DNA from: a virus
Direction: 5' to 3' (one strand)
Virus record (IMG/VR): IMGVR_UViG_3300009285_001551
Location: 1 to 46,227 of that record
DNA: 46,227 nucleotides
The position numbers and the translations under genes were made by a program. The notes under the pieces were generated by a model. It had not been told where the DNA came from and did no database searches. It saw only the letters and a list, made by a program, of their open reading frames with translations. Every line of letters starts with the position of its first letter. Position 1 is the first letter of the stretch. This document shows positions 10,408-32,233 of the stretch, one piece after another.

Positions 10408-10803
10408 TTAGACATCGCTTCCCATGATTGGAATTTGTCCGCCGTTATCGTCGTCACTATGATCATGTAGTGGAACAGCCCCGCCCGCGCCCGCGCCGCC
10501 GCTAATAATCAAGGGTACTTCCGGATCGCGCAAAATCGCGCCGACCTCCTCGCCAAGCGTGAATGTCGTCAATGTGCTTATCGGCTCAGCCCTTAAAATA
10601 GTTCGCGCCACAGCAACCCGCGCCCCCGAAAGCGGCGTCAAGTTGTAAGTCCCATCACCATTGACCGCCGCGATGGTAGCGTGAATAAATGAGGGCAACC
10701 CAAATGCACTCGCCGGTTGCGCCCCCGCCTTTGCCTGCGCTGAGCGGCTTTGCTGGCGAAGCCCCTGAACTTTGACCGCAAGGATGTCTTTATCCTTCGG
10801 CAT
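10408..10803 (-). CDS. Small baseplate/tail-tip protein with His-Asp-rich end
   Basis: 131 residues. After a basic helix (LRQQSRSAQAKAG) there is an OB-like beta segment (HATIAAVNGDGTYNLTPL), followed by strands and a Gly-rich C-terminus with HDHSDDDNGG. OB-fold spike proteins of contractile and some siphophage tails carry an apex HxH metal site, and this HDH could be similar; that is inference. Position between the hub-like protein and the 1258-residue protein fits a baseplate component. Confidence 0.5.
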   Translation of the reverse strand: MPKDKDILAVKVQGLRQQSRSAQAKAGAQPASAFGLPSFIHATIAAVNGDGTYNLTPLSGARVAVARTILRAEPISTLTTFTLGEEVGAILRDPEVPLIISGGAGAGGAVPLHDHSDDDNGGQIPIMGSDV

Positions 10804-10805
10804 TT

Positions 10806-12683
10806 TTAAACATCCCCAATGGTCAAGGATGTGTCGTAGTTCACAAGGTCATAATCAATTCCGTAAATGTTTGCGTCCGTGAGCCGATAGTTATCCTGAT
10901 ACCTGTCTCCAATCTCATAATACAGATCGAAGCGGGGCAACACAATTTCCCAAACCTCACGCGGGTTTTTGCTTTCGTTCAAGCGTTGAGTGGCCCAAGC
11001 ATCCATCACGCCGGAAGCCAGCGAGTCGTCTTGAATAACTGAAACGCTTGAACCACTATGGAGCGTCGGGGTTCCTGTTGCAGAAAACGTGAAGTAGGGT
11101 TCTTTCTTTGCCTTGTAAATGTATTCCGGCTTTTCAATTGTCCGCCAACGAATCGGGCTAAGGCCGGTGTCCTTCGTAAACGTGATGTGAGATTCAGATT
11201 CATAGGCGAATTGCAGCCAGACGGTCGTGGGGAAAGTCGCAGAGTCTCCGCTTGCCAGCGAATAGCTTGCGCCTTTGCCGGTCAAGTCAGCGGCCACGGT
11301 TAAAGTATCTACGGTGTTGGAAGTTATCGTCCAACTCTCCGCTCCGATTGTCAGTGTTGCCCCAGCCCATTGATTCACCGTCCAATTCTTGCTCGTATCG
11401 GTATAACTGAAAAGCCCGCCGACGCCGCCCGTTCCCGAATCGCTTGCCGTGGCCGCCCGCGCTACTTCGATTGCGGGCTTCTCGAAACTTACCGTCTTGT
11501 CGTCTTCGAGGGAAAAGCCCGAATGGAAAACCTTGTAAACCGCCCCGAATTTTGCCACCACAATCGGCGGGGCTTTAGCCGTATTCCCATCGGCGTCTGG
11601 GAGCCAGAAATCTTGCAGACATTCAGGGAGCGGCTTGACCTGGCGGCTTCGCGTTGCATCATCGCAGGTGTCGCTGATTTTCGGGATGCGAAACCGCCGT
11701 CCCACAAATTCCGCGCCCTTGACAAAATCCGTGTTCGGCTCTTTTTCGGTTCCTTCCCTTGTATATTTTTCCCAACCGGCAATCACGGTGGCCTGATTGA
11801 CTCCCGTTTTTGATCCGTCCACGTCCCACCACGGCGTCAAGACAACCGCCGTCTCATATCGCAGACGGCTTCCATTGACCGTGAGCTTGGTTGTACTTTC
11901 TGTTGTGAGCCTAGTCCGCGTTGCCCGCCCGACGTTGGCAGCGCCTTCAGGCTGCGCGTTTGCATCTGCGCTGTAAAGTGTTCCTCTGACTGTGCGCTTT
12001 TGAAATCCAGACCCGACAGAAAAGATTTCCAATTGCCCGCTGCTTGAGGTATATCGCAATTTGACTCGCAGCCGTCCGTTGCCCGCTGATTCGAGGAGCG
12101 TCTGCAAGGCTTCGCCAAACGGCATACCCTTCAATTCTTGAGTGCCCGCCGCCATTGAAAGGTCGGCTCCTGACGTGGAAAAGAAAAGAGAACCGCCATT
12201 GTCATGGTATTGAGCCAAAATGTCAGCAACTATTTCTGCTGTAGTCCAAGGCTCTAAAGGCACTTTATTTGTCGTCGGATTGACAACCATCTCCTGCGTC
12301 TGTTCATCCAGCTCATTGTAGTTTCGATCACACGCGCCGTCGTAAAGTGTGGCGCGGTCATCAATGGCAATATAGGACGTGGACTGAGAACCGACTTCAA
12401 TGTTTGAGCTGGGGTTTTCAATCCGGCCCCGAAAAAATGGGAGAGGAAACCAAGCGCGATTGATGTAAATGATAACCGTGTCCCCAACTGCAACGGGATA
12501 TTGCTCAAACCACGCGCCTTCAAAAAGGACGGTCGCTTCTGTGGCCCGCAACCCTTCCTTTTGCGAAATATGGTCAACCCTCGCGTCGGGCCGATAGACA
12601 GAATTGATCCATACCTCGACAGTGGCTTGCAGAGTCAGGCGGTTTGAAGCACCGGAAAGAGTTGTGGGGAAAAGCAGGGCCAT
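10806..12683 (-). CDS. Baseplate hub-like tail protein with inserted beta module
   Basis: 625 residues. The N-terminal half resembles hub proteins: strand-rich regions (ATVEVWINSVY, GDTVIIYINRAWF) with a segment IVADILAQYHDNGG and LQTLLESAGNGRLRV. Residues 414-478 hold the SGTGGVGG...NQWAG...SNT module also present in three other virion proteins of this window. The C-terminus ends in YEIGDRY...LTIGDV, typical of such proteins. It is probably part of the tail tip. The module looks inserted, since hub-like sequence resumes after it. Confidence 0.6.
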   Translation of the reverse strand: MALLFPTTLSGASNRLTLQATVEVWINSVYRPDARVDHISQKEGLRATEATVLFEGAWFEQYPVAVGDTVIIYINRAWFPLPFFRGRIENPSSNIEVGSQSTSYIAIDDRATLYDGACDRNYNELDEQTQEMVVNPTTNKVPLEPWTTAEIVADILAQYHDNGGSLFFSTSGADLSMAAGTQELKGMPFGEALQTLLESAGNGRLRVKLRYTSSSGQLEIFSVGSGFQKRTVRGTLYSADANAQPEGAANVGRATRTRLTTESTTKLTVNGSRLRYETAVVLTPWWDVDGSKTGVNQATVIAGWEKYTREGTEKEPNTDFVKGAEFVGRRFRIPKISDTCDDATRSRQVKPLPECLQDFWLPDADGNTAKAPPIVVAKFGAVYKVFHSGFSLEDDKTVSFEKPAIEVARAATASDSGTGGVGGLFSYTDTSKNWTVNQWAGATLTIGAESWTITSNTVDTLTVAADLTGKGASYSLASGDSATFPTTVWLQFAYESESHITFTKDTGLSPIRWRTIEKPEYIYKAKKEPYFTFSATGTPTLHSGSSVSVIQDDSLASGVMDAWATQRLNESKNPREVWEIVLPRFDLYYEIGDRYQDNYRLTDANIYGIDYDLVNYDTSLTIGDV

Positions 12684-12687
12684 TGAT

Positions 12688-12855
12688 TTATGCTTTCAGA
12701 GAATCCGTCTCTTTTTCTCCTGTGATATCCCAAATGCTTCCGCAGCGGTCGCATAAATAGCGAATCGTTATCCTTGATCGTTCAAGCATTGATGATAACA
12801 CCCGCGTCTGTGTCGACTGGCAAAGAGGGCACGGCGGGATTAGGTCATCGCTCAT
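12688..12855 (-). CDS. Zinc-ribbon micro-protein, 55 aa
   Basis: ATG 12855 overlaps the upstream stop as ATGA and the stop lies 4 bases before the hub gene start. Two CxxC pairs, CPLC at residue 9 and CDRC at residue 35, form a clear zinc ribbon, followed by an acidic tail (EKETDS). Its place inside the tail operon is unusual for a zinc ribbon. Function unknown. Confidence 0.6.
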   Translation of the reverse strand: MSDDLIPPCPLCQSTQTRVLSSMLERSRITIRYLCDRCGSIWDITGEKETDSLKA

Positions 12856-14306
12856 TCCACAACCTCCGCCGTCAAGACTTGGTCGCCACTCGGCGCTGTC
12901 GAATCCGCCGTCGCGCTCAGTGTGTTGCTTTGTGTTCCCTCTCCGCCACTATTCCACGGCGTCACATAATAATCGTATTCTACGCCGTCGGTTAGGGCGG
13001 CGGTTGTCCATGTGTAAGTTTGCAGCCCGCTCGCCAGCGAATAGGTTGCCGCCGCGCCGGTAAGATTTTCCGCCACTGTAAGGATCGTTGCCGTGTTGGA
13101 AATGACCGTATAGCCAACGCCGCTTATTGTCAGCGTTGACCCCGCCCACTCATTTGTCACCCAAGCCTTCGTCGCATCGGTGTAAGTGGTATTCCCTCCG
13201 ACGCCCGCCGTTCCTGAATCAGCCACACCCAAAGTTTTCGCCAGCGCCGCGTCCTGATAGATTCTCAGCGATACCGCGCCGCTCCCCAACCATCGCGCTG
13301 TCAACTTGATCGTTCCGCCCGCTTGAGGCTCGGCAAGAAGCAGGTCTGGTGTTCCTACGGGCGGATTCATGACTTGCTCAAGATCGGTTACATCAAGAAC
13401 AAGAGTCAATGTTAGCTCTGTCCAATCACTAAGATTCCCGTGCGCGTCCACAGCGCAAATCGCCCAGCGATGGATTCCTTCCCATAATTCGCCGCTATCC
13501 CATGTCAGTATCCCCGCCGCCACAAATGCTCGCGCAAATCTCAAGTTCACGCATGGCGCGTCGGCAAGGTCAGTGAAGCCCGCAACCCAGTTATCGAAGA
13601 TCATCACGCCCACCACATCGGCATCCTGCCCACCCGGTTGTGCCCAAGTCAGGGTTGCTATCCGCGTCGGCATGTCATATCCGACCGCCGGGGTGTCAAC
13701 CGCAAGCGGGGGAGAGTCCACTGTTGCGCTCGTGTAAACGGCTAAATCAGCGCGAATGTTTCCCGTGATGTCTTTATAGGTGAGTCGAAATTCGTAGCTT
13801 CCGTCGGCCAGCTCAGCCGTCACGTATTCGAGTTGGTCAATGCCGTAAATGGTTGCCAGTAGAGTATCCGGCCCTAAACCGTCGCCAGCGTCCCAGTAAA
13901 TTAGATAGGCTTGGAAATCATCGGCAGTCGGTTGGTCTGTCCATGACAGATGAATCCGCTTGCCCCGTGACGTGGCGTAAAACATCGCGCTCGTAAGCCC
14001 CGCATTTTCTTCGCCATTTGAAACAAGAAGCACATCAAGATTTGAGTATTGGTCTGTTCGCAGATCGGTTGCAGTCATCGGCGGGCCTGCTGGCTGCGAT
14101 TGTTTCCATTCGCCGTTGACATAGAGCTGTCGCGTTATATCGGCGTCTGATAGATTCGCGGGCAAAGATTCCTTCCATCGTAGCACCGCCTTCGTTGGAT
14201 CGCCCGGAACGGCTTCCGCCGCTTCGCCAAAGAGCATCCCGCGACAGGGAATAGCCGTGCCATTTATAAGATTGCCTTCGATATGGTAGGGGAAGTTGGG
14301 GATCAT
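12852..14306 (-). CDS. Tail protein with FnIII-like domains and beta module
   Basis: 484 residues. The central part looks like fibronectin-III or Ig-like repeats (IHLSWTDQPTADDFQAYLIYWD; ATLTWAQPGGQDADVVGVMI; WAICAVDAHGNLSDW). Residues 363-427 carry the SGTAGVGG...NEWAG...SNT module, and a last FnIII-like strand pair (YDYYVTPWNSGGEG) follows. These domains are frequent surface decorations of tails. It sits in the tail-tip cluster and its stop overlaps the zinc-ribbon gene. Confidence 0.65.
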   Translation of the reverse strand: MIPNFPYHIEGNLINGTAIPCRGMLFGEAAEAVPGDPTKAVLRWKESLPANLSDADITRQLYVNGEWKQSQPAGPPMTATDLRTDQYSNLDVLLVSNGEENAGLTSAMFYATSRGKRIHLSWTDQPTADDFQAYLIYWDAGDGLGPDTLLATIYGIDQLEYVTAELADGSYEFRLTYKDITGNIRADLAVYTSATVDSPPLAVDTPAVGYDMPTRIATLTWAQPGGQDADVVGVMIFDNWVAGFTDLADAPCVNLRFARAFVAAGILTWDSGELWEGIHRWAICAVDAHGNLSDWTELTLTLVLDVTDLEQVMNPPVGTPDLLLAEPQAGGTIKLTARWLGSGAVSLRIYQDAALAKTLGVADSGTAGVGGNTTYTDATKAWVTNEWAGSTLTISGVGYTVISNTATILTVAENLTGAAATYSLASGLQTYTWTTAALTDGVEYDYYVTPWNSGGEGTQSNTLSATADSTAPSGDQVLTAEVVE

Positions 14307-14698
14307 TTCGGTTTATATTTCTTCCAGACGTTCGCCAATTCGGGTAAAAGCGGCGTAACAAAATAAGCAACTCGCGCTACGGCTTCAGAAAATTGGTTAT
14401 GATTAAAATTAAAAATATAGCCATCCGACCCGTGAGCATGATCTCCGCAATTTGAAAACCGACATTGCTGATTGTCTATGGACATTTCTGTTGCCTCGTG
14501 GAGAAGAACTGCTACGACTTCCCACCAGTATTTATAGCCCAATCCAATCTTGATTCTCGGTGGGGATTTCTCATCCGGCTTCATGTAAAACCAACCACCA
14601 GTCTGACCGCGCCAGCCGTAGACCTCGACGTTCATCCAGCAAAATTCAAAAGTCCCAATAAAAATTTGATCGAGATCAGACTTCGATTTTTTCTTCAA
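14303..14698 (-). CDS. HExxE-motif protein, possible metallopeptidase-like
   Basis: 131 residues, read from TTG 14698 with GGAG about 10 bases upstream. A helix carries LLHEATEM (H67-E68-A69-T70-E71), like a zinc-binding helix but with Glu in place of the second His. Nearby Cys/His residues (CRFSNCGDHAHG) could complete a metal site. The rest is aromatic. In a tail operon this could be a maturation or penetration protease, or merely a metal-stabilised structural protein. Undecided. Confidence 0.5.
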   Translation of the reverse strand: MKKKSKSDLDQIFIGTFEFCWMNVEVYGWRGQTGGWFYMKPDEKSPPRIKIGLGYKYWWEVVAVLLHEATEMSIDNQQCRFSNCGDHAHGSDGYIFNFNHNQFSEAVARVAYFVTPLLPELANVWKKYKPK

Positions 14699-14744
14699 CT
14701 TTTTCGCTCTCCAACTTATTTGCCGATTCCATTCATACGGTCGC

Positions 14745-15590
14745 TCATGCCGTCAAACTTTCCAGCAGAGTAATGGTCACCCCGCTTATTCCTTCCCCGT
14801 CACCTTTGACTTGAATCACATCGCCCGCGCTGCAAACCAAAGCCGCCGAAAGCGCGGTCGGCCCGCCCGTCCGCGCCGTCGCGTCAAAGGTGGCCGTCAC
14901 GCTTGCGCTAGTTGTAGTGTTAAGAATTGTCAGCGTGGCATTGCCGGTGGAGCCGAGGTTGCTGTCAATGGCGTGGGTAAAATGCGAGAAAGTGATTTTC
15001 TGAGGAGCGCGTCGCGTTGCCCAAACAATTGTAGTCTGGCCCGCTACCAGCAGCCAAGGCATTGAAAAAATCAGAGGGCGGCGGACACGGAAAATCTGCC
15101 CAAATCCTTTGTAGCGGACATAGATCGAACCGCTTGTGTCCCTACGGATTTCGCCAGTATTGATATTCCAATAGATTTGATTCGTGCTTGGTGTTCCGGC
15201 TAGAAGAACTTCGAGGCGCGTCCCTGTTTTGCCCGCCCCAGTCCACGCGCCATAAGTGGGAGATGTGTTGCCCGCCACAGCAGAGTTTGAATCTTCTAGC
15301 GCCCAGCCCTGATACAATCCGCTAGGCAGCAGCGTAGTCACGACAACAACTTCGTCGCCGAATAATGTATAGGTTGCTCCCTTGCCCGTTAAGTCTTCGG
15401 CAACTGTCAAGACTGTGGCGGTATTCGAGATCACCGCCCAACTTTCGGCCCCAACTGTTAGGACTCCACCGGCCCACTGATTCGTTCCCCATGCTTTTGT
15501 TGAATCGGTATAGGTAGTATTGCCCCCGACACTGGCGGTTCCAGAATCACCACTTTGATTTGTCCCTGTAATATCGTAAGGCCGCGCCAT
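14745..15590 (-). CDS. Tail protein with N-terminal beta module
   Basis: 281 residues. The SGTASVGG...NQWAG...SNT module occupies residues 14-78, almost at the N-terminus. After it come beta-rich segments (EVLLAGTPSTNQIYWNINTGEI; SIYVRYKGFGQIF) and a C-terminal domain with GNATLTIL and GDVIQVKGDGEG, reminiscent of jelly-roll capping domains. It is probably a tail-tip or adaptor protein. Confidence 0.55.
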   Translation of the reverse strand: MARPYDITGTNQSGDSGTASVGGNTTYTDSTKAWGTNQWAGGVLTVGAESWAVISNTATVLTVAEDLTGKGATYTLFGDEVVVVTTLLPSGLYQGWALEDSNSAVAGNTSPTYGAWTGAGKTGTRLEVLLAGTPSTNQIYWNINTGEIRRDTSGSIYVRYKGFGQIFRVRRPLIFSMPWLLVAGQTTIVWATRRAPQKITFSHFTHAIDSNLGSTGNATLTILNTTTSASVTATFDATARTGGPTALSAALVCSAGDVIQVKGDGEGISGVTITLLESLTA

Positions 15591-15608
15591 TTCTCAGTCT
15601 CCATTTCT

Positions 15609-16061
15609 TTAGCCAGTCAGCCGCTTAAACGTCGCCCTGAATCGAAAGCCGATATTCCCGTCTCCCAACGTTTGTCCGATCCCCCGCGAAAGCGGTTCAT
15701 AAGCAAAGTCAACCCAACGGTAGGGCCCGGTATAAGTAGTTCGCAAATCCACCAAAGTTCCCGCCAAGTTTCCAGCATTGAGCATGAAATTCTCAATCGC
15801 GTTTATCCGCGTTATCATGGCTGCGTTGGTGACGCAGTAAAGAATCCCTGAGTATCCAACCCATCGCGCTGAGGCGTCGGTATTCTGGGAGCCAACTGCT
15901 TTTGAGAATTGCCCCGCCGTGTTTGCTAGGGCGTAGTCTTGAACGTCAACTTTCGGCGTGGTCATCAAATTGCGGTTGTAAAGATCGGAGCAACTCGCCC
16001 CGTTGCCTGTCCCCGCGTAAGCGATTGTGAAGCCGTTAAAAATAAGGTCACCAGCAGCCAT
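15609..16061 (-). CDS. Small tail protein downstream of tape measure
   Basis: 150 residues immediately after the tape measure gene, the usual place of a distal-tail (Dit-like) or minor tail protein. It is beta-rich, starting LIFNGFTIAYAG and ending GNIGFRFRATFKRLTG, with a central helix (MITRINAIENFML). No specific motif recognised; assignment rests on order and size. Confidence 0.5.
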   Translation of the reverse strand: MAAGDLIFNGFTIAYAGTGNGASCSDLYNRNLMTTPKVDVQDYALANTAGQFSKAVGSQNTDASARWVGYSGILYCVTNAAMITRINAIENFMLNAGNLAGTLVDLRTTYTGPYRWVDFAYEPLSRGIGQTLGDGNIGFRFRATFKRLTG

Positions 16062-16070
16062 TAAGGTCTC

Positions 16071-17831
16071 CTAGTTTATCGCCACTCCGGGGCCTTGGGT
16101 AATCAAAGAAGCCGTGTTTGCGGCCCGATTAAAAGCATCGGCAGATTGATTCGCAAGCCGTCTTGACTTTCGCGCCGCCTCGTTTCGCATCCATCTATCG
16201 CTCTGGTCCGGTGTCTCTTGGTCAATCATGGGAATGTAAGTTCGATTTCGCATCCCGGCAGACCATGCCGCCTGCCGAGCGTCTTCCGCGCCCTCTGCGG
16301 CCTTTGCCCTCCATTCACGCTCCCACGGCGGGTATTGAGAAACATAGGGCATAAAATTGCGCCAAGTGTCCGACGACGCTGCTTCTCGACGATATTCTGG
16401 ATACCTCTTTTGCAGCTCGGGGTCTATTATATCAGCCATTCCGATTTCGCCCCGGACTCTCTTCATAAGAGCATCCGTTTTGGCGCTCGCTTTGCTAAAA
16501 TCGGAATCGAGCGATTCCTCCGTTACGCTTTTGGGGCTTTCGAGGCCGAGGTTTCGCATAAGTTGACGCTTAAAAGCGTATTTCAATCCGCCCTGTTTTG
16601 CCCAACCAAAAAAATCTGTTAACTCACCCTGTTCTTGTGGGAATGTTTTCTCCGCCGCCTTCATTCTTTTTTTCCATTGCAAGTACTTAATTGGATGCGC
16701 TGCGCTCGGCTTAGAGAAATCTTCTCTGCCGCCCCCAGCAATAGAAACTCCTTCACCCCATCCAACCCCCGCCCCCCCTTTACCATCGGATTCAGAGCCG
16801 GGATATTTCTCCCCGAGCTCTGTAGCGTATTTCTGTGTGGCAATTCCAGTCGCTACTCCGGCTACAGCTCCTGGGACACCTCCAACCCTTCCTCCCAAGA
16901 CGCCCAAGGCTGCAATTTTTGTCAGATCATCCCAACCGACGCCAAGTGTTTTTGTAATTCCGACCTTGATTGCCTTGGCGATTACCGGCGTCCAAATTTC
17001 TATTAGCTCGACTGAAGCAGAAAGGACTGTCTTTAAATTCCCAAGAATCTTTTCCTTGTCAAAAAACCCCGTATCGTTAACTTCATTGATCGCTGCCGCG
17101 ATTTTCTTTAACCATGCCTCGACTGGTTCTTGAACTAACGCGCCAAAAGATTCCTTGACATTTTCAACCGCGTTGCCCATCTGAATCCAAGGATCAGCCG
17201 CCGCCTCTGCCGTGCCAACTGAACGCGCGGAAATCGCCGCCAGAATCTTGTTGAAATCGCCGTCCTTGAAAATATCTTCAGCGATTCCAAGCCCCATTAA
17301 ACCGCGCCCCTGACCCCTGAAAGCCCGAATCAGGGCTTGGCCCCCTATCCCCCTAGCCGCCAGATCAATCGCAACCGGAAGGGCGAGATAGGCTTTCTCT
17401 ACATCACCAAGGCCGACAACCAATTCAGCGAAAGTCTGGCGCACCGCCGCGTCGTCAAAATTCGTCTTAGCCTGGATCGTTCGCGCAATAGACTCAATTC
17501 GTTTTTCTTGCGCCGCGTAAGTGCTATTCACGGTTCGCAATGAACGATCAAGCTCTCGAATCCCTTGGACTTCTTTTTGACGGAGTCCGATGGATTGCTT
17601 GGTAAAAGAAATCAGGCTGCGCGTTCCTGAGACGACCCCGCGAATGCCAAGTTTGATTCCCTCGACAACAAGAGCGCCCTTGACAAAGGAAGTGGTCATG
17701 GACTGGCCGGATTGCTTGGCTGCCGCGCCGAGAGAAGTCAACCCGGATTTCGCGTCGGCAATGGCTTGTTTCGCCCCGCTCGAATCCCCGCCGATGGTAA
17801 GGACGGCTTGAGTTTGTGGTGTTGACGCCAT
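16071..17831 (-). CDS. Tape measure protein
   Basis: 586 residues, starting with a Ser/Ala/Lys-rich helix (SGAKQAIADAKSGLTSLGAAAKQSG) typical of tape measures. A hydrophobic segment (FVKGALVVEGIKLGIRGVV) and long helices (QEKRIESIARTIQAKTNFDDAAVRQ-type) follow. A small Gly/Ala/Val-rich region (VLGGRVGGVPGAVAGVATG) may be membrane-active. It lies directly after the frameshifted chaperone genes, as expected. The modest length predicts a fairly short tail. Confidence 0.88.
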   Translation of the reverse strand: MASTPQTQAVLTIGGDSSGAKQAIADAKSGLTSLGAAAKQSGQSMTTSFVKGALVVEGIKLGIRGVVSGTRSLISFTKQSIGLRQKEVQGIRELDRSLRTVNSTYAAQEKRIESIARTIQAKTNFDDAAVRQTFAELVVGLGDVEKAYLALPVAIDLAARGIGGQALIRAFRGQGRGLMGLGIAEDIFKDGDFNKILAAISARSVGTAEAAADPWIQMGNAVENVKESFGALVQEPVEAWLKKIAAAINEVNDTGFFDKEKILGNLKTVLSASVELIEIWTPVIAKAIKVGITKTLGVGWDDLTKIAALGVLGGRVGGVPGAVAGVATGIATQKYATELGEKYPGSESDGKGGAGVGWGEGVSIAGGGREDFSKPSAAHPIKYLQWKKRMKAAEKTFPQEQGELTDFFGWAKQGGLKYAFKRQLMRNLGLESPKSVTEESLDSDFSKASAKTDALMKRVRGEIGMADIIDPELQKRYPEYRREAASSDTWRNFMPYVSQYPPWEREWRAKAAEGAEDARQAAWSAGMRNRTYIPMIDQETPDQSDRWMRNEAARKSRRLANQSADAFNRAANTASLITQGPGVAIN

Positions 17832-17834
17832 GAG

Positions 17835-18104
17835 CTATCTCTTTTTCTCCCCAAGTTTTTCCAGAATTGCTGGTGTCATTAGCGCAGGCGAAATTGACAG
17901 GGGAATTTTTTCACGCGCCTCAGATTTCTGAAAGTGCTTCTCAAGCAGCCAGACAGATTCTCCGATTGCGTCCATCATGTCAGCAACCCGCCATTCACCA
18001 GTCTTTAATTCTCTCAGCACCTGCCTCGGAGTAGCACCGCAGCGATACCGCGCCGCCATGAAAAGTCTCGAAAGTTCATGCAGCGCGAGCGCGGTGCTTA
18101 GGCG
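17835..18104 (-). CDS. Tail assembly chaperone, frameshift extension (gpT-like)
   Basis: This frame is open from the slippery site at 18104 to the stop at 17835 and adds 89 residues (beginning RLSTALALHELSRLF) to the upstream chaperone, for a 217-residue fusion. An internal ATG at 18059 could give a 74-residue product but has no convincing ribosome-binding site. In lambda-like phages the T domain recruits the tape measure protein during tail assembly. Gene order (tube, G/GT, tape measure) supports this. Confidence 0.75.
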   Translation of the reverse strand, partial: RLSTALALHELSRLFMAARYRCGATPRQVLRELKTGEWRVADMMDAIGESVWLLEKHFQKSEAREKIPLSISPALMTPAILEKLGEKKR

Positions 18105-18487
18105 TTTTTTGCTTCAGGCGTTTCCGCGCCAACGACCTTGATTTCATAATCAGGGCCATTGCCCGCCGCGCAGCGAATAAAGGTTTCTGCGTTTGAAACA
18201 TCAAAGACGTGCTCTTTCAAGAGCGCGGCAATTGTTTCGGCGCGATAGTTGAAGGCGAGAAGTCCGTTTGCCAACTTTCTCAGCGCCGCGTGTTGTGTCC
18301 CCAACGGCTTGGTCTTGTCGAGTTCATCAATAGCGGTCATGCAAATATCGCCAGCCTCATCAAGGCTCGCCGCCGTCACGAAATATGCCTTGCCATCGTT
18401 TCCCTTGACCTTAAAGCCGATAGGGGTCGGGATGCCAGAGTCGGGCATGACAATTTCTGAAACCTCGACGACTTTTTCATCTGCCAT
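18098..18487 (-). CDS. Tail assembly chaperone (gpG-like)
   Basis: 129 residues between the tail-tube genes and the tape measure. It starts acidic (MADEKVVEVSEIV), has an alpha/beta core (GDICMTAIDELDKTKPLG, YRAETIAALLKEHVF) and ends ETPEAKNA. The last codons contain an in-frame A-AAA-AAC heptamer, so a fraction of ribosomes should shift to -1 and make the longer fusion. Function by position and frameshift architecture. Confidence 0.78.
   Translation of the reverse strand: MADEKVVEVSEIVMPDSGIPTPIGFKVKGNDGKAYFVTAASLDEAGDICMTAIDELDKTKPLGTQHAALRKLANGLLAFNYRAETIAALLKEHVFDVSNAETFIRCAAGNGPDYEIKVVGAETPEAKNA
18104..18110 (-). promoter_or_regulatory. -1 ribosomal frameshift slippery site A-AAA-AAC
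   Basis: On the transcribed strand codons GCA-AAA-AAC-GCC-TAA end the gpG-like gene; the heptamer A|AAA|AAC is in the correct phase two codons before the stop. After a -1 slip the frame continues CGC-CTA-AGC without a stop into the downstream chaperone frame. This matches the X-XXY-YYZ rule for tail chaperone frameshifts. Confidence 0.8.
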
Positions 18488-18499
18488 AAAGCCTCCCCT

Positions 18500-18991
18500 T
18501 TATGCTGCTGTTAATGTCAACGGTGAAGTCGAACCGTCGGCAGAGTAGAGTTTGATATTGATTACATATTCCCCGCGATCCCCGCCTCCAGAAGTTACCG
18601 ACGTAACTTTTCCCACTGCGCTTGCGGCATTTTGTAGCGTGATCGTTGTAAGCGGAGACGCCGCCGCCGTCCCTTCGGCTTCAAATTGGATTGAAATGCA
18701 ATCCGCCAACACGCCCGCGCCGGAAATTGCCGTTCCAGCCGGAAAAGTCTGTGTCGCTCCATAAGCGTCAAGTGTGCGGATCGTAAGCGTGAAACTCTTG
18801 CTCACTACACCGCCGTTTCGGGCCATTACATCACCATCACTGAGGTTGCGGAAAATCGAAGTCTCCTCAGTATAGGTTGCTTCGAGCACGTCATTCAAAA
18901 CCGTGAGTGCTCCAGCAGATGGTTTTAGCTGGGTCTGCTCCAGTTTCGGTCGGCCCTTCAAGAGTTGGTTCTTTGCTGCTCCGATAGGCAT
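18500..18991 (-). CDS. Tail tube protein, paralog A
   Basis: 163 residues, clearly homologous to its upstream neighbour: both start ..GKNQLL.G or AKNQLLKG, share VLEA.Y..E...F.NLSDGDV, GGVV.K.(F/Y)(T/S)LT(I/L)RTLD, and end with GDR.EY...I.L(Y/F)S.DGST.PLT. The beta-rich sequence just upstream of the chaperones fits a major tail protein. Its central loop (AISGAGVLADCISIQF) is longer than in the paralog. Confidence 0.65.
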   Translation of the reverse strand: MPIGAAKNQLLKGRPKLEQTQLKPSAGALTVLNDVLEATYTEETSIFRNLSDGDVMARNGGVVSKSFTLTIRTLDAYGATQTFPAGTAISGAGVLADCISIQFEAEGTAAASPLTTITLQNAASAVGKVTSVTSGGGDRGEYVINIKLYSADGSTSPLTLTAA

Positions 18992-19015
18992 TGTAGCAAT
19001 TCCTTCCCGTGGCTC

Positions 19016-19465
19016 TTACGCCACAAATGTGAGCGGCGCTGTCGAGCCGTCGTCTGAGAATAAATCAATCTCTACCGTATATTCGCTTCGATCCCCCGCA
19101 CCCGACGAAACGCTGCGCACAACGCCCGTCGCTCCGGTATCGCCAACAAGCGAAAGCGTTCCCGACCCGTCACCTTTAGCGTCAAAAGTAATATCAAAGG
19201 CCGTGATCGAAGTCCCCTGTCTAAGATATTGCGTCACGCTAAACCCATCCAAGGTTCGTAGGGTCAGTGAGTAGGTTTTTTCAACCACACCCCCGTCGCG
19301 CTCGCAAACATCGCCGTCGCTGAGATTTGAAAAGTTGTTGACTTCAGAGGAGTATATCGCTTCCAGCACATCGTAAATCGAACGCGGCGTTGCGCTGATT
19401 GTCAGGGAAACGCTAGAGGGCTTCCCGTGTAACAGTTGGTTTTTCCCCGCTGCAATGAGAGCCAT
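19016..19465 (-). CDS. Tail tube protein, paralog B
   Basis: 149 residues, paralogous over its full length with the gene at 18500-18991. It retains NLSDGDV, GGVVEKTYSLTLRTLDG and the C-terminal DGSTAPLTF. Two divergent copies next to each other suggest duplication of the tube gene; one may form the tube and the other a variant ring, or both may co-assemble. Which is the major protein cannot be told from sequence. Confidence 0.65.
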   Translation of the reverse strand: MALIAAGKNQLLHGKPSSVSLTISATPRSIYDVLEAIYSSEVNNFSNLSDGDVCERDGGVVEKTYSLTLRTLDGFSVTQYLRQGTSITAFDITFDAKGDGSGTLSLVGDTGATGVVRSVSSGAGDRSEYTVEIDLFSDDGSTAPLTFVA

Positions 19466-19489
19466 TGTGAATCACTCCTTCCTGTTATT

Positions 19490-19954
19490 TTATCTTACAT
19501 CTCTTGCCCAGCTCATCAAAACCCGGCAAATTGCCCGTTGCCCAACCTGTCCCTTCCAAATCAATTCCTGCGGGTCAAAGGTTAAATCAATGTCTTCGGC
19601 CTTGAAGCCGCTCACTAGACTCGCCTCCTGACTCTTGAGCGCCAGAATCGCATCGCTCAGGAGTTGCAGTGCGTTTTCTCTGTCGCTTATTCGCGCAACC
19701 CCGCCCGTGACATTCCCGCCGACGTAGGCAGAAATTTCTATCCGCACCGTGGCAGCGTTTGAATCGCTTGTAAAATCTCCGTCCTCATCGCTCCCGCTAT
19801 AGTCAATAAACACGGTCGGCCCGCTTGCCCGCGAAAAACCAACCGGCGGTTGTCCAATATGCACCGCCACCTTTTCGTTCTGAGTTTTCAGACCCGCCTT
19901 TCGTATCGCTTCCGCGATATTTTGAATTGCCGTGATGACCCGCGCCGTCGCCAT
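19490..19954 (-). CDS. Tail terminator-like protein
   Basis: 154 residues located between the connector and the tube genes, the position of gpU-type tail terminators. N-terminal helix (VITAIQNIAEAIRKAGL), strands (KVAVHIGQPP, TVRIEISAYVGG), then a helix (ENALQLLSDAILALKSQ) and closing strands (ICRVLMSWA) match the alpha/beta plan of that family. Stop and next start are well spaced. Confidence 0.6.
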   Translation of the reverse strand: MATARVITAIQNIAEAIRKAGLKTQNEKVAVHIGQPPVGFSRASGPTVFIDYSGSDEDGDFTSDSNAATVRIEISAYVGGNVTGGVARISDRENALQLLSDAILALKSQEASLVSGFKAEDIDLTFDPQELIWKGQVGQRAICRVLMSWARDVR

Positions 19955-20512
19955 TTAGAAAAGCCTCGTCGCTGTTTTCTTGCTCGCGTTCAAAACAATC
20001 CAACCGCCCCTTGCAAGCGTCTCGTCCATTGCCGCTTTTACCAGATCGGGAATGCGCTTCAAGTCATCCTCTGTCCAGAAAAACAGAGGCCGCTTCTCCT
20101 CGGCCCAAATATAATAGGCAAGCCTTGGGTCTAATATGGCCTCATACTTTGGCGGATCGGCCTGCAGCGTGATCGTCTTGTCTCCCTTGTTCCCGACGGT
20201 CGTTGCTGCTTTCAGAACCTTGCCGGTGCGAATCCAAATCTTTGTCGAAATGACCACGTTCGGGCGCGGCTCGCCCTCGATGGCCTTTCCAATGTGTGAA
20301 GCCTTCCAGTTAAAATAAGACGGGGAAAGCGGCTCCCAGTCCTGCGCGTCAATGACCGCCTTCAACCCGGACGGCCCAAACTTGTATTTATCTATCGTCT
20401 TGAACGCCAACAAGATAGAGTCGTCCACGATCTTATCGCTCATGGTCGTGAATAAAACCGCTTTGGGAATCTTCAGAGAAACATTAAGATTCAAAAATCC
20501 GCGAATTGCCAC
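19955..20512 (-). CDS. Neck / virion morphogenesis protein (Mu gpG / HK97 gp10-like)
   Basis: 185 residues, directly abutting the tail terminator gene. It contains the segment PLSPSYFNWK followed by WIRTGKVLKA, a pattern typical of phage virion morphogenesis (tail completion) proteins. The C-terminal part has a helix ending ILDPRLAYYIWAEEKRPLFFW, also usual for the family. It likely joins head and tail. Confidence 0.6.
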   Translation of the reverse strand: MAIRGFLNLNVSLKIPKAVLFTTMSDKIVDDSILLAFKTIDKYKFGPSGLKAVIDAQDWEPLSPSYFNWKASHIGKAIEGEPRPNVVISTKIWIRTGKVLKAATTVGNKGDKTITLQADPPKYEAILDPRLAYYIWAEEKRPLFFWTEDDLKRIPDLVKAAMDETLARGGWIVLNASKKTATRLF

Positions 20513-20532
20513 CTGAAGGTCGCTCCGCTATC

Positions 20533-21432
20533 TTACCCGCGCACAACTATCCCGCTCGTATATCCCCCCTGCGGTTGCGGCCAGCGCGTTTCCCTCACAA
20601 GATCAATCTCATCAAAGTAGTCAATGCCCGACGCTCGCCCACCTTCGCTTTCTTTCAACTCGGCAAGCATGGTTTCAAAATACTCTTTAAGAGATTTTGT
20701 CTGCTCGGAAAACTCTGACATTTCCCCGTGTTGGGAGAGAATGTCATACGCAAGCCAGCGTAGTGCCAGCGCCTTCAGGGTGGGAGGTGGGGTGGGAAGT
20801 GTGTGGGAATAATCCGAAAATACTGAGTCGCCCCGCTCAAGCCCTGGGCTGAAGGCTACTATTGCGGTGGACAGCGACCAGAGCGTTGAATCCATTTTGT
20901 CTTCATCCGTCCGGTAATCATAAGACGCGGGCGGAAAGTTCTTATAGAGCTTGAGCGTCCCCGTCGTCGGCGTGATTTTGAGGGTCGCGCTTGTCTGCGC
21001 GCTCGTTGCCGATTTTACAAGAATCTCGCCTTCGATTTTTGTGTGCATCGCCCGATATTTTTCAGGCAGCCGCGACTTGAATACCGCGATTGATTGAGGC
21101 AGATAGGTCGTAAATTCTGTCGAAGTCATCAGCAGGCGCGGACGGGCGCGAATAACCCAAGTGGCCGATGCTCCGGTGAGATTGCTGTCGAGCGTCAAGA
21201 CCGTTGGAGTATTAGAAACGATCTGGTAATAGGAATTCCCAACGAGCAAATAAAAGCCTTCATGTTCATTGACCTCCCACGTAGCCGCCCCAACCGTGTA
21301 AGTGAGATTCCCGCCAACCCCGCCCGTGCCGGAAGCCTTATTTATGAGCCAAGGCCCGCGCACGGTCGCGCCCGGATTAATATAGGGTTGAACCTCTGAG
21401 GAGATGATACCATAGTCGTCGGGGTTTGCCAT
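20533..21432 (-). CDS. Head-tail connector protein with inserted beta module
   Basis: 299 residues. Residues 33-95 carry the most diverged copy of the recurrent module (SGTGGVGGNLTYT...SNTPTVLTL...LTGASATW). The rest is helical (LKALALRWLAYDILSQHGEMSEFSEQ; LKEYFETMLAEL), resembling head-completion or adaptor proteins. Position between minor head and neck genes fits. A decoration module inside a connector is unusual. Confidence 0.55.
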   Translation of the reverse strand: MANPDDYGIISSEVQPYINPGATVRGPWLINKASGTGGVGGNLTYTVGAATWEVNEHEGFYLLVGNSYYQIVSNTPTVLTLDSNLTGASATWVIRARPRLLMTSTEFTTYLPQSIAVFKSRLPEKYRAMHTKIEGEILVKSATSAQTSATLKITPTTGTLKLYKNFPPASYDYRTDEDKMDSTLWSLSTAIVAFSPGLERGDSVFSDYSHTLPTPPPTLKALALRWLAYDILSQHGEMSEFSEQTKSLKEYFETMLAELKESEGGRASGIDYFDEIDLVRETRWPQPQGGYTSGIVVRG

Positions 21433-21447
21433 TGTAATGAATCCTGC

Positions 21448-22044
21448 TTAGGCCGGCGGGGATAGCCTCGCCGCGTTTATGATTGCCCGTTTCTTCTGGA
21501 TCGGCCCCAACTTTGAAAACTGGCTGCGCGAAATACCGAGCCGCTGTGCTGCCGCCCCCGTCGCCTTGATCGGTGTTCGGGCGAGAGGGCGCAAACTCGA
21601 ATCCCCGCTCATGTCTTCAAATAATTGTGGCCCAATTTTCATCGCGCCTTCGCCGATAAGCGCTGCCCGCGCCTTGCCAACCGTTGCAGTCAATTCAGAG
21701 GGCGAAAGGTCTTTGAGATATTCAAACTGCTCTTGTGGCGGGAACTCATCGGCTAGACCGAGAAGTTCTATGTCCCCAAGCGGCGCATTCCAACAAACGC
21801 AAAGATCGTGGAGTGGCTCCATCGGAACTTCTTTCCCGCTTCCATCGTGATAAACCCCAAACCACTGCATACATTCAGCGCACGGCCCGCTTGCGCTTAC
21901 GCCTTCCATCCTCACAAAAGTATTCGCAGAATACGCCTTCTCTGCTTTTCTTGCCCGCCCCGCCATTTCTAAAAGCGACGGCACAAGACCTTCCGGCCCC
22001 ACATCCACAAACTCGACGGATAGGCTTATATTAAGCGGACTCAT
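21448..22044 (-). CDS. Minor head protein with Cys/His motif (Mu gpF-like)
   Basis: 198 residues. The middle has SGPCAECMQWFGVY and, further on, PLHDLCVCWNAPL: the CxxC...H..CxCxW arrangement of the C-terminal domain of Mu F/SPP1 gp7-type minor head proteins. The C-terminal part (KATGAAAQRLGISRSQFSKLG) looks like an HTH-like helical tail. It overlaps the gene for its upstream neighbour as ATGA. Such proteins enter the capsid and may be ejected with DNA. Confidence 0.7.
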   Translation of the reverse strand: MSPLNISLSVEFVDVGPEGLVPSLLEMAGRARKAEKAYSANTFVRMEGVSASGPCAECMQWFGVYHDGSGKEVPMEPLHDLCVCWNAPLGDIELLGLADEFPPQEQFEYLKDLSPSELTATVGKARAALIGEGAMKIGPQLFEDMSGDSSLRPLARTPIKATGAAAQRLGISRSQFSKLGPIQKKRAIINAARLSPPA

Positions 22045-22786: not shown

Positions 22787-23998
22787 TTACTCGAATATCA
22801 CATACATGAATGCAATTGCCTCGGTCTCAGTCACCGGCGTGGTTCCATCAGCTTCATCAAAGGAATAGACAGCGAAAGAGCCCGCGCCGGGACTGACAAC
22901 CCAACGACCCAAAGGAGCGCGTGTCGTGCTCAGGGGCATAACCATAACTTCAGAATTGCCCGTGCAAGCCGCCGCCGTTGTGGTGTCTGAGCTTGTGCCA
23001 CTATCAAAGGAGCCGCGAGTAGTGATAATGGCCCCCCATTCTTGAGCGTCAATCTTGAGCGCCGCCCCGCGCAGAGTTCCAGAAGCCACCACGTCGTCTT
23101 GGCTCCCCACGCTTGTTGACAGGGATAGTAAATCGGTTGTCCCCGTTCCTCCATTTGCAATTGGTAAAGCCCCGGTAATCGCTGCGCTTTGATTCAGAGC
23201 GACCGCACCAAATCCGATTGATGTACCGCTCCGCCGCAGCACTTGATTGTCCGAGCTAGCCGCGATAGATGCGTTATCAGCCGTCGAAGCCCCCGTCACG
23301 CCAAGCACCGACCGCGCAGAGCCTTGGGTGAGATTCGCAAACGGAAGGTCGCCGGTGACATCGGTTGTCAAATCTACCATCCCCGATCCTACGCCTCCTA
23401 GCGTCGGGGCTACTGCAACTCCCCCCGCCTGACTCCCCGCATCGCTCAGTGTCAACACGAGGTCGGTCGGAGCCGCCATTTGCTGCCCGTAAAGATAGAT
23501 CGCAGGAATGGCGATTGTGATTGTATCTCCTTCGTGCCAGCTATTGCCCGCCGAAGCGGACGTTGCAAAATCAGCCGTCGCCACGCCGTCGGTAAACGTC
23601 GGCTTAGGCGCGACTGAATAAGCGGGATTAAAAACCCCCGACCCGCTATCCGAGATCGTCCAGCTCGTCGGCGTCTGCCAGTCAAGAGCGGTCATCGCAT
23701 TTCCGTCGGCGTCTGTGACGGTCAGAGTAATGGTTCGCGTGGCTCCGGCATTGGCTTCAACGGACGTTACCACATCGTCAATCGTAGTGTTTTGCCGGAA
23801 GTCTCCCCGCGCCCCGGAAGCAACAGCTTGGAGGAAATTCGCCCCATCCCCATCATGCCAGAAACCATACTGATTAAGGACAACGGCGGCGGCTTCATCC
23901 GCTCCCGGCTCGGCTGCTTGCGTTTGAATTGTGAAGAAAGAAAAGACGGCGGCGAATAAAAACGCCATGAGCCGTCCGTGAGTTGTAAACCCCTTCAT
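22787..23998 (-). CDS. Fibre-like protein with Sec signal peptide
   Basis: 403 residues. The first 29 form a classic signal peptide: basic start (MKGFTTHGR), hydrophobic core (LMAFLFAAVFSFFTI) and an A-x-A site (QTQAA). The mature part has Ig-like strands (ITLTVTDADGNAMTA) and then a fibre-type linker (QSAAITGALPIANGGTGTTDL) and a beta C-terminus. A secreted protein encoded between capsid and connector genes is odd. It could be a decoration protein acquired from a host secreted gene, or act at the cell surface. Confidence 0.6.
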   Translation of the reverse strand: MKGFTTHGRLMAFLFAAVFSFFTIQTQAAEPGADEAAAVVLNQYGFWHDGDGANFLQAVASGARGDFRQNTTIDDVVTSVEANAGATRTITLTVTDADGNAMTALDWQTPTSWTISDSGSGVFNPAYSVAPKPTFTDGVATADFATSASAGNSWHEGDTITIAIPAIYLYGQQMAAPTDLVLTLSDAGSQAGGVAVAPTLGGVGSGMVDLTTDVTGDLPFANLTQGSARSVLGVTGASTADNASIAASSDNQVLRRSGTSIGFGAVALNQSAAITGALPIANGGTGTTDLLSLSTSVGSQDDVVASGTLRGAALKIDAQEWGAIITTRGSFDSGTSSDTTTAAACTGNSEVMVMPLSTTRAPLGRWVVSPGAGSFAVYSFDEADGTTPVTETEAIAFMYVIFE

Positions 23999-29781: not shown

Positions 29782-31155
29782 TCAAGGGGAACTGTCCGAT
29801 TCTGTAGCTGTCTCTGTTGCCCCGAATTCAACAGGCCCAACTGCTGCTGTTGCTTTTCGCGGATCGCCCTTCACAAAAACAAGGACGTGCTCATGCACAG
29901 GAACGAGTTTTCTCATGGTTTGAAACATTTTACGAGCCCTTAACGCCGCGCTTGCGAGGGGCTTTAGGTGAATGGCGTGATTGTAAAACGAACATCCCGC
30001 AACCTCGAATCCCCGGATTGTGTCAGAAACAAGACTCAGTTGCTTCCCAGACTTGTCTCGCGTTTCCGCCACCTCAAAACATGCAAAACGGTGTTCGTGC
30101 AACACAGATACCGTCTCTTTAATTGCCCTGAAAAACCCGTCAAGGAAAGCTTCATAATCAACGGCATTATTCAAATCGTTTTTCAGGTCAGAGTAGTGTT
30201 CGCGATTAAAATATGGAGGGGAGGAAAAAATAAAATCTCCCCGGACTTCTCCTACCAGACGAGCGAAATCTCGACTATCCCCAACCATCCAATTGGGAGC
30301 CAACTCAAGCCGTTCTGCTTCTTTTCTATTTGCATCTATTTGTTCTTGGCGTAAATCAATTCCGAGATATTCATAGCCGAGTTTCGCCGCAACAATTCCT
30401 CGCACACACCCACCAGCAAATGGATCAAGAATAAGACCCCCCGGAGGACAAAACCACCGATAAGCAATTTCGCATAGCGTGGGGTCAAAAACTCCCGTCC
30501 TCTCTCCTTGCATTGGACATGCTTGCAACATTTTCTTGCTTATTTTTAAAAGGTTTTTCGCACGCCCAGCCAAACTATCAAAACCCAAAGAATCCCAGTC
30601 GGCACGTCTTGCCTTCCAATAACTTCGCTTTGCATCAAAGATAGAAAATGGCGGGATTAAAAAGTCCTTGACAAGATTTCCGGCGCTCGTGCCATCCCCC
30701 GGTATAAAATAAGTTACAAGTTCCTCAAACCTCAGCGCCTCGAATAACTCCGCGTCGCCTATCTTGAGTTCGTCCAGCAGCGACCCCAGCCCCTCGTCAA
30801 ACTCTCCCGCGACGTGCGGATTGTTCGCGGCGATATTTCCGGCCTGCTCTGTCTGCAAATCCCAGTCAACCACGCGCACCGGAAATCGCTCGCCCGCCGG
30901 TGTGATGACCGCCCCGCCCTCCAGTTTCAGCCTGTCGCCATAGAGCGTCTTGAGTGCGTCGAGCCTCTGATGTCCACAGACCAAGTTCCTACTGCGTGAA
31001 TTGAATACCAAACCTGAAATATCTCCGAACTTTTTGAGCGAGACTCGCAGCCCTGCCGCCGCCTCGCTCGTGATGGTTCGCGGATTGTAGGAAGCGGGCT
31101 TAAGGTCTGCGATTGTCTTGGGCGTCTTTGGCTTGGTCGTCGCTGCTAGTTTCAT
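29782..31155 (-). CDS. ParB-domain DNA methyltransferase fusion
   Basis: 457 residues from ATG 31155; a TTG at 31191 would overlap the operator. The N-terminal ParB/Srx-like domain has LKPASYNPR, GLVFNSRSRNLVCGHQRLDAL and NIAANNPHVAGEFD. The methyltransferase half has motif I LDPFAGGCVRG (243-253) and GIDL, followed by motif IV SSPPY (311-315), so the order is I then IV. SPPY fits N6-adenine or N4-cytosine methylation. It starts the packaging operon. Probably protects phage DNA from restriction. Confidence 0.85.
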   Translation of the reverse strand: MKLAATTKPKTPKTIADLKPASYNPRTITSEAAAGLRVSLKKFGDISGLVFNSRSRNLVCGHQRLDALKTLYGDRLKLEGGAVITPAGERFPVRVVDWDLQTEQAGNIAANNPHVAGEFDEGLGSLLDELKIGDAELFEALRFEELVTYFIPGDGTSAGNLVKDFLIPPFSIFDAKRSYWKARRADWDSLGFDSLAGRAKNLLKISKKMLQACPMQGERTGVFDPTLCEIAYRWFCPPGGLILDPFAGGCVRGIVAAKLGYEYLGIDLRQEQIDANRKEAERLELAPNWMVGDSRDFARLVGEVRGDFIFSSPPYFNREHYSDLKNDLNNAVDYEAFLDGFFRAIKETVSVLHEHRFACFEVAETRDKSGKQLSLVSDTIRGFEVAGCSFYNHAIHLKPLASAALRARKMFQTMRKLVPVHEHVLVFVKGDPRKATAAVGPVEFGATETATESDSSP

Positions 31156-31189
31156 GGTTTTTCTTTTGCGCCTTTCAGAAATCAAAGTC

Positions 31190-31216
31190 AACCTATAGGT
31201 TCATGGGGTCATTATA
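31190..31216 (-). promoter_or_regulatory. Promoter with perfect palindromic operator
   Basis: On the transcribed strand a perfect TATAAT lies at 31216-31211. A perfect 12-bp palindrome, AACCTATAGGTT, at 31201-31190 covers the expected start of transcription. No good -35 is present (an A-rich region lies there), so an activator may be needed. It precedes the ParB-methyltransferase and packaging genes in the only larger gap of this region. Confidence 0.55.
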
Positions 31217-31303: not shown

Positions 31304-32233
31304 TCAGAGACTCCCGAACATGTCCTCATCCTCACCATGATGTTTTATCTCGGCAAGGTTGCGAACCGCTTGATGGTAGTAAGAGGGTTTTAATTCGATT
31401 CCAATCCCGCGCCGTCCGTTCATCACCGCTCCATAAACTTCAGAGCCGACGCCCATGAATGGCGTGAGCACAACCTCGCCGGGGTTAGACCACAAGACGC
31501 AGGCGCGCTCAATCACGTCGAGCTGAAGGGGACAAATGTGCTTTTCGTCCATTGGATCGCGCCCTGCTCTTGCGTTTAGTGTTCTTGTTTGGCGAATGTC
31601 CATCCAAACAGGAGATGCATAAGCGCGCCAGATGTTATGTGCCGCGCCAATTCCCACTCCTCCCGGCGCGTGTTTCCCACAATACGTTTTTAATCCGTCG
31701 AGGTGAGAAATCGGCGTTGCATTTTCTCCGGGCTTCCGAAAAGTCAAAAGATAATCTGGAAGTCCGGCGCGACAAATCGCACTATCCTTAACGAGTTGCT
31801 TGTGCATAAGGCCAAGTGCTTTTGTCCTCGTCGCCTCAATCAACGGGTCTTTCCAAATGATGTGACGTGAATGATAGATGAACCCGTTGCTCTGAAACAG
31901 CCGGATAATATCTCCCGGAAAATCCTTCAATCCAATATATCCGTCGCGTTCCTTCATCGCCGGAATATCTATACAATGAACCGCACAGTTGCGCCCAAGT
32001 TTCATGACTCGGAAAATCTCGCCGACAATATATCCGAAGTGCTCGAAGAATTCTGAGTAATTCCTACAATTCCCAAGGTCTGCGGGATTATCGCTATAGC
32101 AGTAGAGATCGGCAAATGGCGGAGAAAAAAGAGTCATGTCTACGCTTGACTCTGGCAGCGTTTTTAACACTTCGCACGAATCTCCGCAATAAAGTGCATA
32201 TCTCTCTGTGATCGTTTGTTCCATCACAGCCAT
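31304..32233 (-). CDS. Beta-class DNA methyltransferase
   Basis: 309 residues. Motif IV FSPPFADLYCYS (36-47) precedes motif I LTPFMGVGSEVYG (256-268), the order of beta-class enzymes. The sequence has the hallmarks of a widespread phage family (DLGNCRNYSEFF, GDIIRLFQSNGFIYHS, TKALGLMHKQLVKDS, ICPLQLDVIERA). The usual Asp of DPF in motif I is Thr here, which might affect S-adenosylmethionine binding. It overlaps the helicase gene by 10 bases; the two are often found together or fused. Confidence 0.87.
   Translation of the reverse strand: MAVMEQTITERYALYCGDSCEVLKTLPESSVDMTLFSPPFADLYCYSDNPADLGNCRNYSEFFEHFGYIVGEIFRVMKLGRNCAVHCIDIPAMKERDGYIGLKDFPGDIIRLFQSNGFIYHSRHIIWKDPLIEATRTKALGLMHKQLVKDSAICRAGLPDYLLTFRKPGENATPISHLDGLKTYCGKHAPGGVGIGAAHNIWRAYASPVWMDIRQTRTLNARAGRDPMDEKHICPLQLDVIERACVLWSNPGEVVLTPFMGVGSEVYGAVMNGRRGIGIELKPSYYHQAVRNLAEIKHHGEDEDMFGSL

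Follow-up and report, generated by a model that had tools for sequence, protein, structure and literature searches.

A small beta domain probably copied among four otherwise unrelated particle proteins of one phage genome

Ig-like domains are the main known case of domain sharing between the particle proteins of phages: they occur in several functional classes of such proteins in tailed phages, and weak surface binding has been proposed for them (Fraser, Maxwell and Davidson 2007, as cited in PMC7602432). PMC10684548 describes phage protein domain mosaicism, in which parts are exchanged between proteins linked to host contact. Structural work on lambda places the C-terminal domain of gpL on the outer surface of the tail tip (PMC10721106). 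Here we analysed a 46,227-nucleotide stretch of viral DNA (IMG/VR record IMGVR_UViG_3300009285_001551, positions 1 to 46,227; hereafter the window), in which the initial annotation had noticed a ~65-residue beta-rich unit in four virion proteins and read it as an exchangeable, perhaps sugar-binding, surface decoration spreading within one genome.

The window carries four copies of this module, each about 64 residues long, all on the minus strand and one per carrier protein, as supported by BLASTP, a profile scan and edge identity. They lie at 11247..11441 (residues 415-479) in a 625-aa protein that is likely the tail hub (10806..12683, minus strand); at 13026..13220 (residues 363-427) in a 484-aa tail protein with FnIII/Ig-like stretches (12852..14306, minus strand); at 15357..15548 (residues 15-78), near the N-terminus of a 281-aa tail protein (14745..15590, minus strand); and at 21148..21336 (residues 33-95), near the N-terminus of a 299-aa protein in the head-tail interval that is likely the head-tail adaptor (20533..21432, minus strand). 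The annotated N-terminal placements in the 281-aa and 299-aa proteins stand, whereas the hub copy, described as mid-protein, sits at 66-77% of the protein's length. BLASTP between carriers gave E values of 2.8e-22 to 4e-10, the significant alignments being the module, and a six-frame scan of the window with an HMM built from the same four copies recovered all of them (E<=6e-33) and nothing else real. Amino acid identity among the copies is 41-69% and drops to 0-20% in the 20 flanking residues (0-7% before the module, 5-20% after), giving edges that are sharp in both protein and DNA; the copy in the 299-aa protein is the most diverged, as first annotated. Once the module was masked, the best cross-match between carriers had E=0.023 and the remaining pairs had E>=0.37 or no match, in agreement with the claim that the carriers are unrelated outside the module. 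The E=0.023 match pairs residues 231-278 of the 281-aa protein with 208-255 of the 299-aa protein, numbered from the preceding stop of each frame, and is probably due to chance.

Of the carrier names first proposed, FnIII is borne out by a Big_13 match (E=2.5e-5) in the 484-aa protein, where both the fn3 and Big_13 matches fall outside the module. The names hub and connector follow from gene order: the Pfam, PHROGs and NCBIfam libraries assign neither name to any window carrier, the 625-aa protein has no library match, and PF24175 does not detect the 299-aa protein. The phage is distant from cultured ones, its portal being ~25% identical to its best match. Two contigs, L096 (99.90% identical to the window) and L097 (99.79%), are fragments of the same phage, and L096 stops at window position 21740, short of the module genes. 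No carrier orthologue was found in viral contigs searched with the 299-aa protein, the hub, the tail protein, the portal and the capsid protein, or in phages searched with the 299-aa protein and the hub; all hits were to the module alone or came from fragments of this same phage. Because no module-free carrier orthologue was found, insertion is a step that we infer.

Elsewhere in the window, all on the minus strand, a 131-aa protein with a His/Asp-rich end (HDHSDDDNGGQ; 10408-10803) adjoins the hub-like gene and is possibly a tail spike. Adjacent paralogues at 18500-18991 and 19016-19465 (46% identical, E 1e-41) occupy the tail tube gene position, and a 403-aa protein with a signal-peptide-like N-terminus (22787-23998) lies within the head gene region. 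Neighbouring DNA methyltransferase genes occur at 29782-31191 and 31304-32233, with a ParB-like region attached to the first.

AlphaFold2 predicts the module to be a confident, compact domain of six strands (pLDDT 90.1, pTM 0.75). The top Foldseek matches were the phage Chi tail-tip protein (8vjh_D, TMq 0.69) and a JBD30 chain (8rk3_O, TMq 0.70), both with probability 1.00 but with E values of 0.05-0.09, above 0.001. By its length of 272 residues and the baseplate list of the corresponding paper, 8rk3_O should be JBD30 gp50, an upper baseplate protein; it and the Chi protein belong to the gpL/Phage_BR0599 hub lineage. A profile comparison by hhalign of the module with a BR0599 stretch gave a probability of 58.7 and P of 9.5e-5, compared with a best probability of 0.5 in 30 column shuffles. 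The predicted fold and this distant profile match support the view that the module would be a distant relative of the gpL-C/Phage_BR0599 structural kind. None of the window carriers matches PF09356 at its cut-off of 22.9 bits. In an alignment of gpL-type hubs (A4), C146 and C155 are invariant, with C237 and C244 almost as well conserved, and in both JBD30 and lambda cysteines of this lineage form a metal site. The four window modules have no cysteine and thus lack these metal-site residues.

Searching other genomes showed the module to be widespread. Pattern-and-tblastn scans of viral contigs found 146 and later 160 relatives in overlapping sets, from each of which the best 80 were kept, and a scan of bacterial genomes found 13. 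Across an aligned set of 111 family members, W24, N27 and N46 are conserved in at least 90%. No Pfam, NCBIfam or PHROGs model passes for the family. Of the weak Pfam matches, Phage_BR0599 comes up most often (in 6 of the 111 members, best E 0.0013), and among the 25 of 34 families listed, Ig and FnIII models matched only at chance level (for example, Cadherin_5 in 2 of 111, best E 0.089). A PDB sequence search gave no match, no paper came up in a literature text search for a stretch of the module's sequence, and searching on the domain-sharing idea returned background papers only. Much of the family in viral contigs consists of a ~880-aa protein family (L002, L015, L016 and many other viral loci) with five detected modules each plus module-like stretches. 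Five copies in one protein also occur in a Dehalococcoidia bin (L090:3260-5272), and on a bacterial contig of a Nitrospirae bin (L084:3407-4570) the module lies beside a CXXCH cytochrome-like region.

Five other records (L045, L076, G009, G016 and G025) carry the module in different genes whose products are unrelated outside it; copies in L081, L092 and L048 are whole-gene duplicates and were left out of this count. In G025, a 602-aa protein (L191, 124-1929, minus strand) has the module at residues 77-139, between the GQSN motif (residue 11) and the GESEG (269) and DGGHYD (356) motifs of a putative SGNH-type esterase region, a reading drawn from a weak SASA match and the motif positions. Fused to this region, at residues 395-560, is an SU10-type head-tail adaptor domain (PF24175, E 5.5e-9).

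Within the 484-aa protein, the module may lie between strands C' and E of the third FnIII-like domain, a placement that is suggestive only. AlphaFold2 modelled the FnIII-like domain with the module poorly in its flanks (block means 40-61), and Foldseek on this model again returned JBD30 8rk3_O. Joining the flanks in silico gave one weak Big_7 match (E 0.02) that spans the junction and does not appear when the stretch is left intact. The FnIII repeats aligned weakly or without significance (z 2.3 for F1, 0.35 for F2). Among the matches listed in a search of the loci with the joined flanks, the flanks in the ~880-aa protein were themselves module-like.

In a tree of the 111 modules, the tail-protein, FnIII-protein and hub copies form a clade (100/95), and the copy in the 299-aa protein groups with L045 copies when the tree is unconstrained (98/96). 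The tree is weak because the alignment is short; an AU test did not reject a single clade of all four window copies (p=0.61), and the constrained tree had the higher likelihood. At conserved residues, five of the six pairs match in third codon positions no more than the codon-usage background; the exception is hub versus FnIII protein, with an identity of 0.65. Over a slightly longer stretch, this pair shares 26 of 39 third positions (expected 0.33, p=2e-5), so it would record one younger copying or conversion. Third positions are mostly saturated, and the spread is thus mostly old. Together, the sharp edges, the unrelated carriers, the three-copy clade and the AU test support the proposal of spread within one genome.

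We think it probable that an ancestor of this phage acquired a small self-folding beta domain and that in-frame copies of it reached four particle proteins unrelated to one another. The domain gained would have been of the gpL-C/Phage_BR0599 structural kind without cysteines, and its copies would have arisen when short pieces of DNA recombined within the genome. Another reading is unlikely, in which every carrier inherited its segment vertically as an old, intrinsic domain and the four are alike only through descent from one ancient tail domain, with no spread in this lineage. It draws on the saturation of synonymous positions in most window pairs and on a different phage protein family, in which L034 and its homologue MW202608 have the module in the same place at 29% identity over their length, so that the module there is old and inherited and not always a recent insert. 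However, the window copies cluster together and not with copies of other genomes (100/95 for three), and the hub/FnIII-protein pair holds an excess of third-position identity. More doubtful still is separate horizontal transfer of a module into every carrier from outside: the breadth of the family in viral contigs and the far-diverged copy in the 299-aa protein, placed with L045 in the free tree, would fit it, but three copies form one clade, the four-copy clade has the higher likelihood, and the modules, at 0.53-0.59, differ little in GC from their carriers. Gene conversion homogenizing older, separately placed modules within the genome would account for hub and FnIII-protein third positions lying well above background when other pairs do not, yet it is seen in one of the six pairs and the remainder are saturated, leaving it the least probable account.

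If in-frame copying of a self-folding domain is correct, the module would be placed on the particle surface as a generic add-on that supplies extra contact area, the role suggested for phage Ig-like domains. Weak adhesion to cell-surface material stands at roughly even chances as its role, and a role in stability or assembly, through stabilizing contacts with neighbouring proteins, is possible but less likely. Of the description as an exchangeable surface decoration, exchange is well supported, and surface location is plausible from the fold matches. Sugar binding found no support: no carbohydrate-binding family was matched, and the Foldseek rows naming carbohydrate-binding domains had E values of 2.4-3.8 and probabilities of 0.05-0.07. 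We tentatively raise a broader reading, somewhat short of an even prospect, that this widespread, uncurated family of virion domains, distant kin of gpL/BR0599, serves tailed phages as a mobile surface unit of general use that has repeatedly spread within single genomes, entering tail, hub, fibre, esterase and adaptor proteins as a counterpart of Ig-like domains.

If true, a second family would share the habit of the Ig-like domains, and the habit would be general. This would also give a name to a domain that occurs in 146 or more stretches of viral contigs and has no Pfam, NCBIfam or PHROGs model, and the four copies in one small genome would offer a test case, with the same module at different places of one particle. 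Like the Ig-like domains of phages, it is one small beta domain found in several classes of particle proteins; unlike them, it passes no Ig or FnIII model, and its predicted six-strand domain best matches gpL-type proteins. Whereas domain mosaicism, as presented in PMC10684548, concerns exchange between proteins linked to host contact, here a single genome has one module in four proteins that are otherwise unrelated. The best solved fold matches of the module point to the Phage_BR0599/gpL-DUF2163 C-terminal domain of Chi, JBD30 gp50 and lambda gpL, but, in contrast to that lineage, the module lacks the conserved cysteines and sits in many unrelated carriers.
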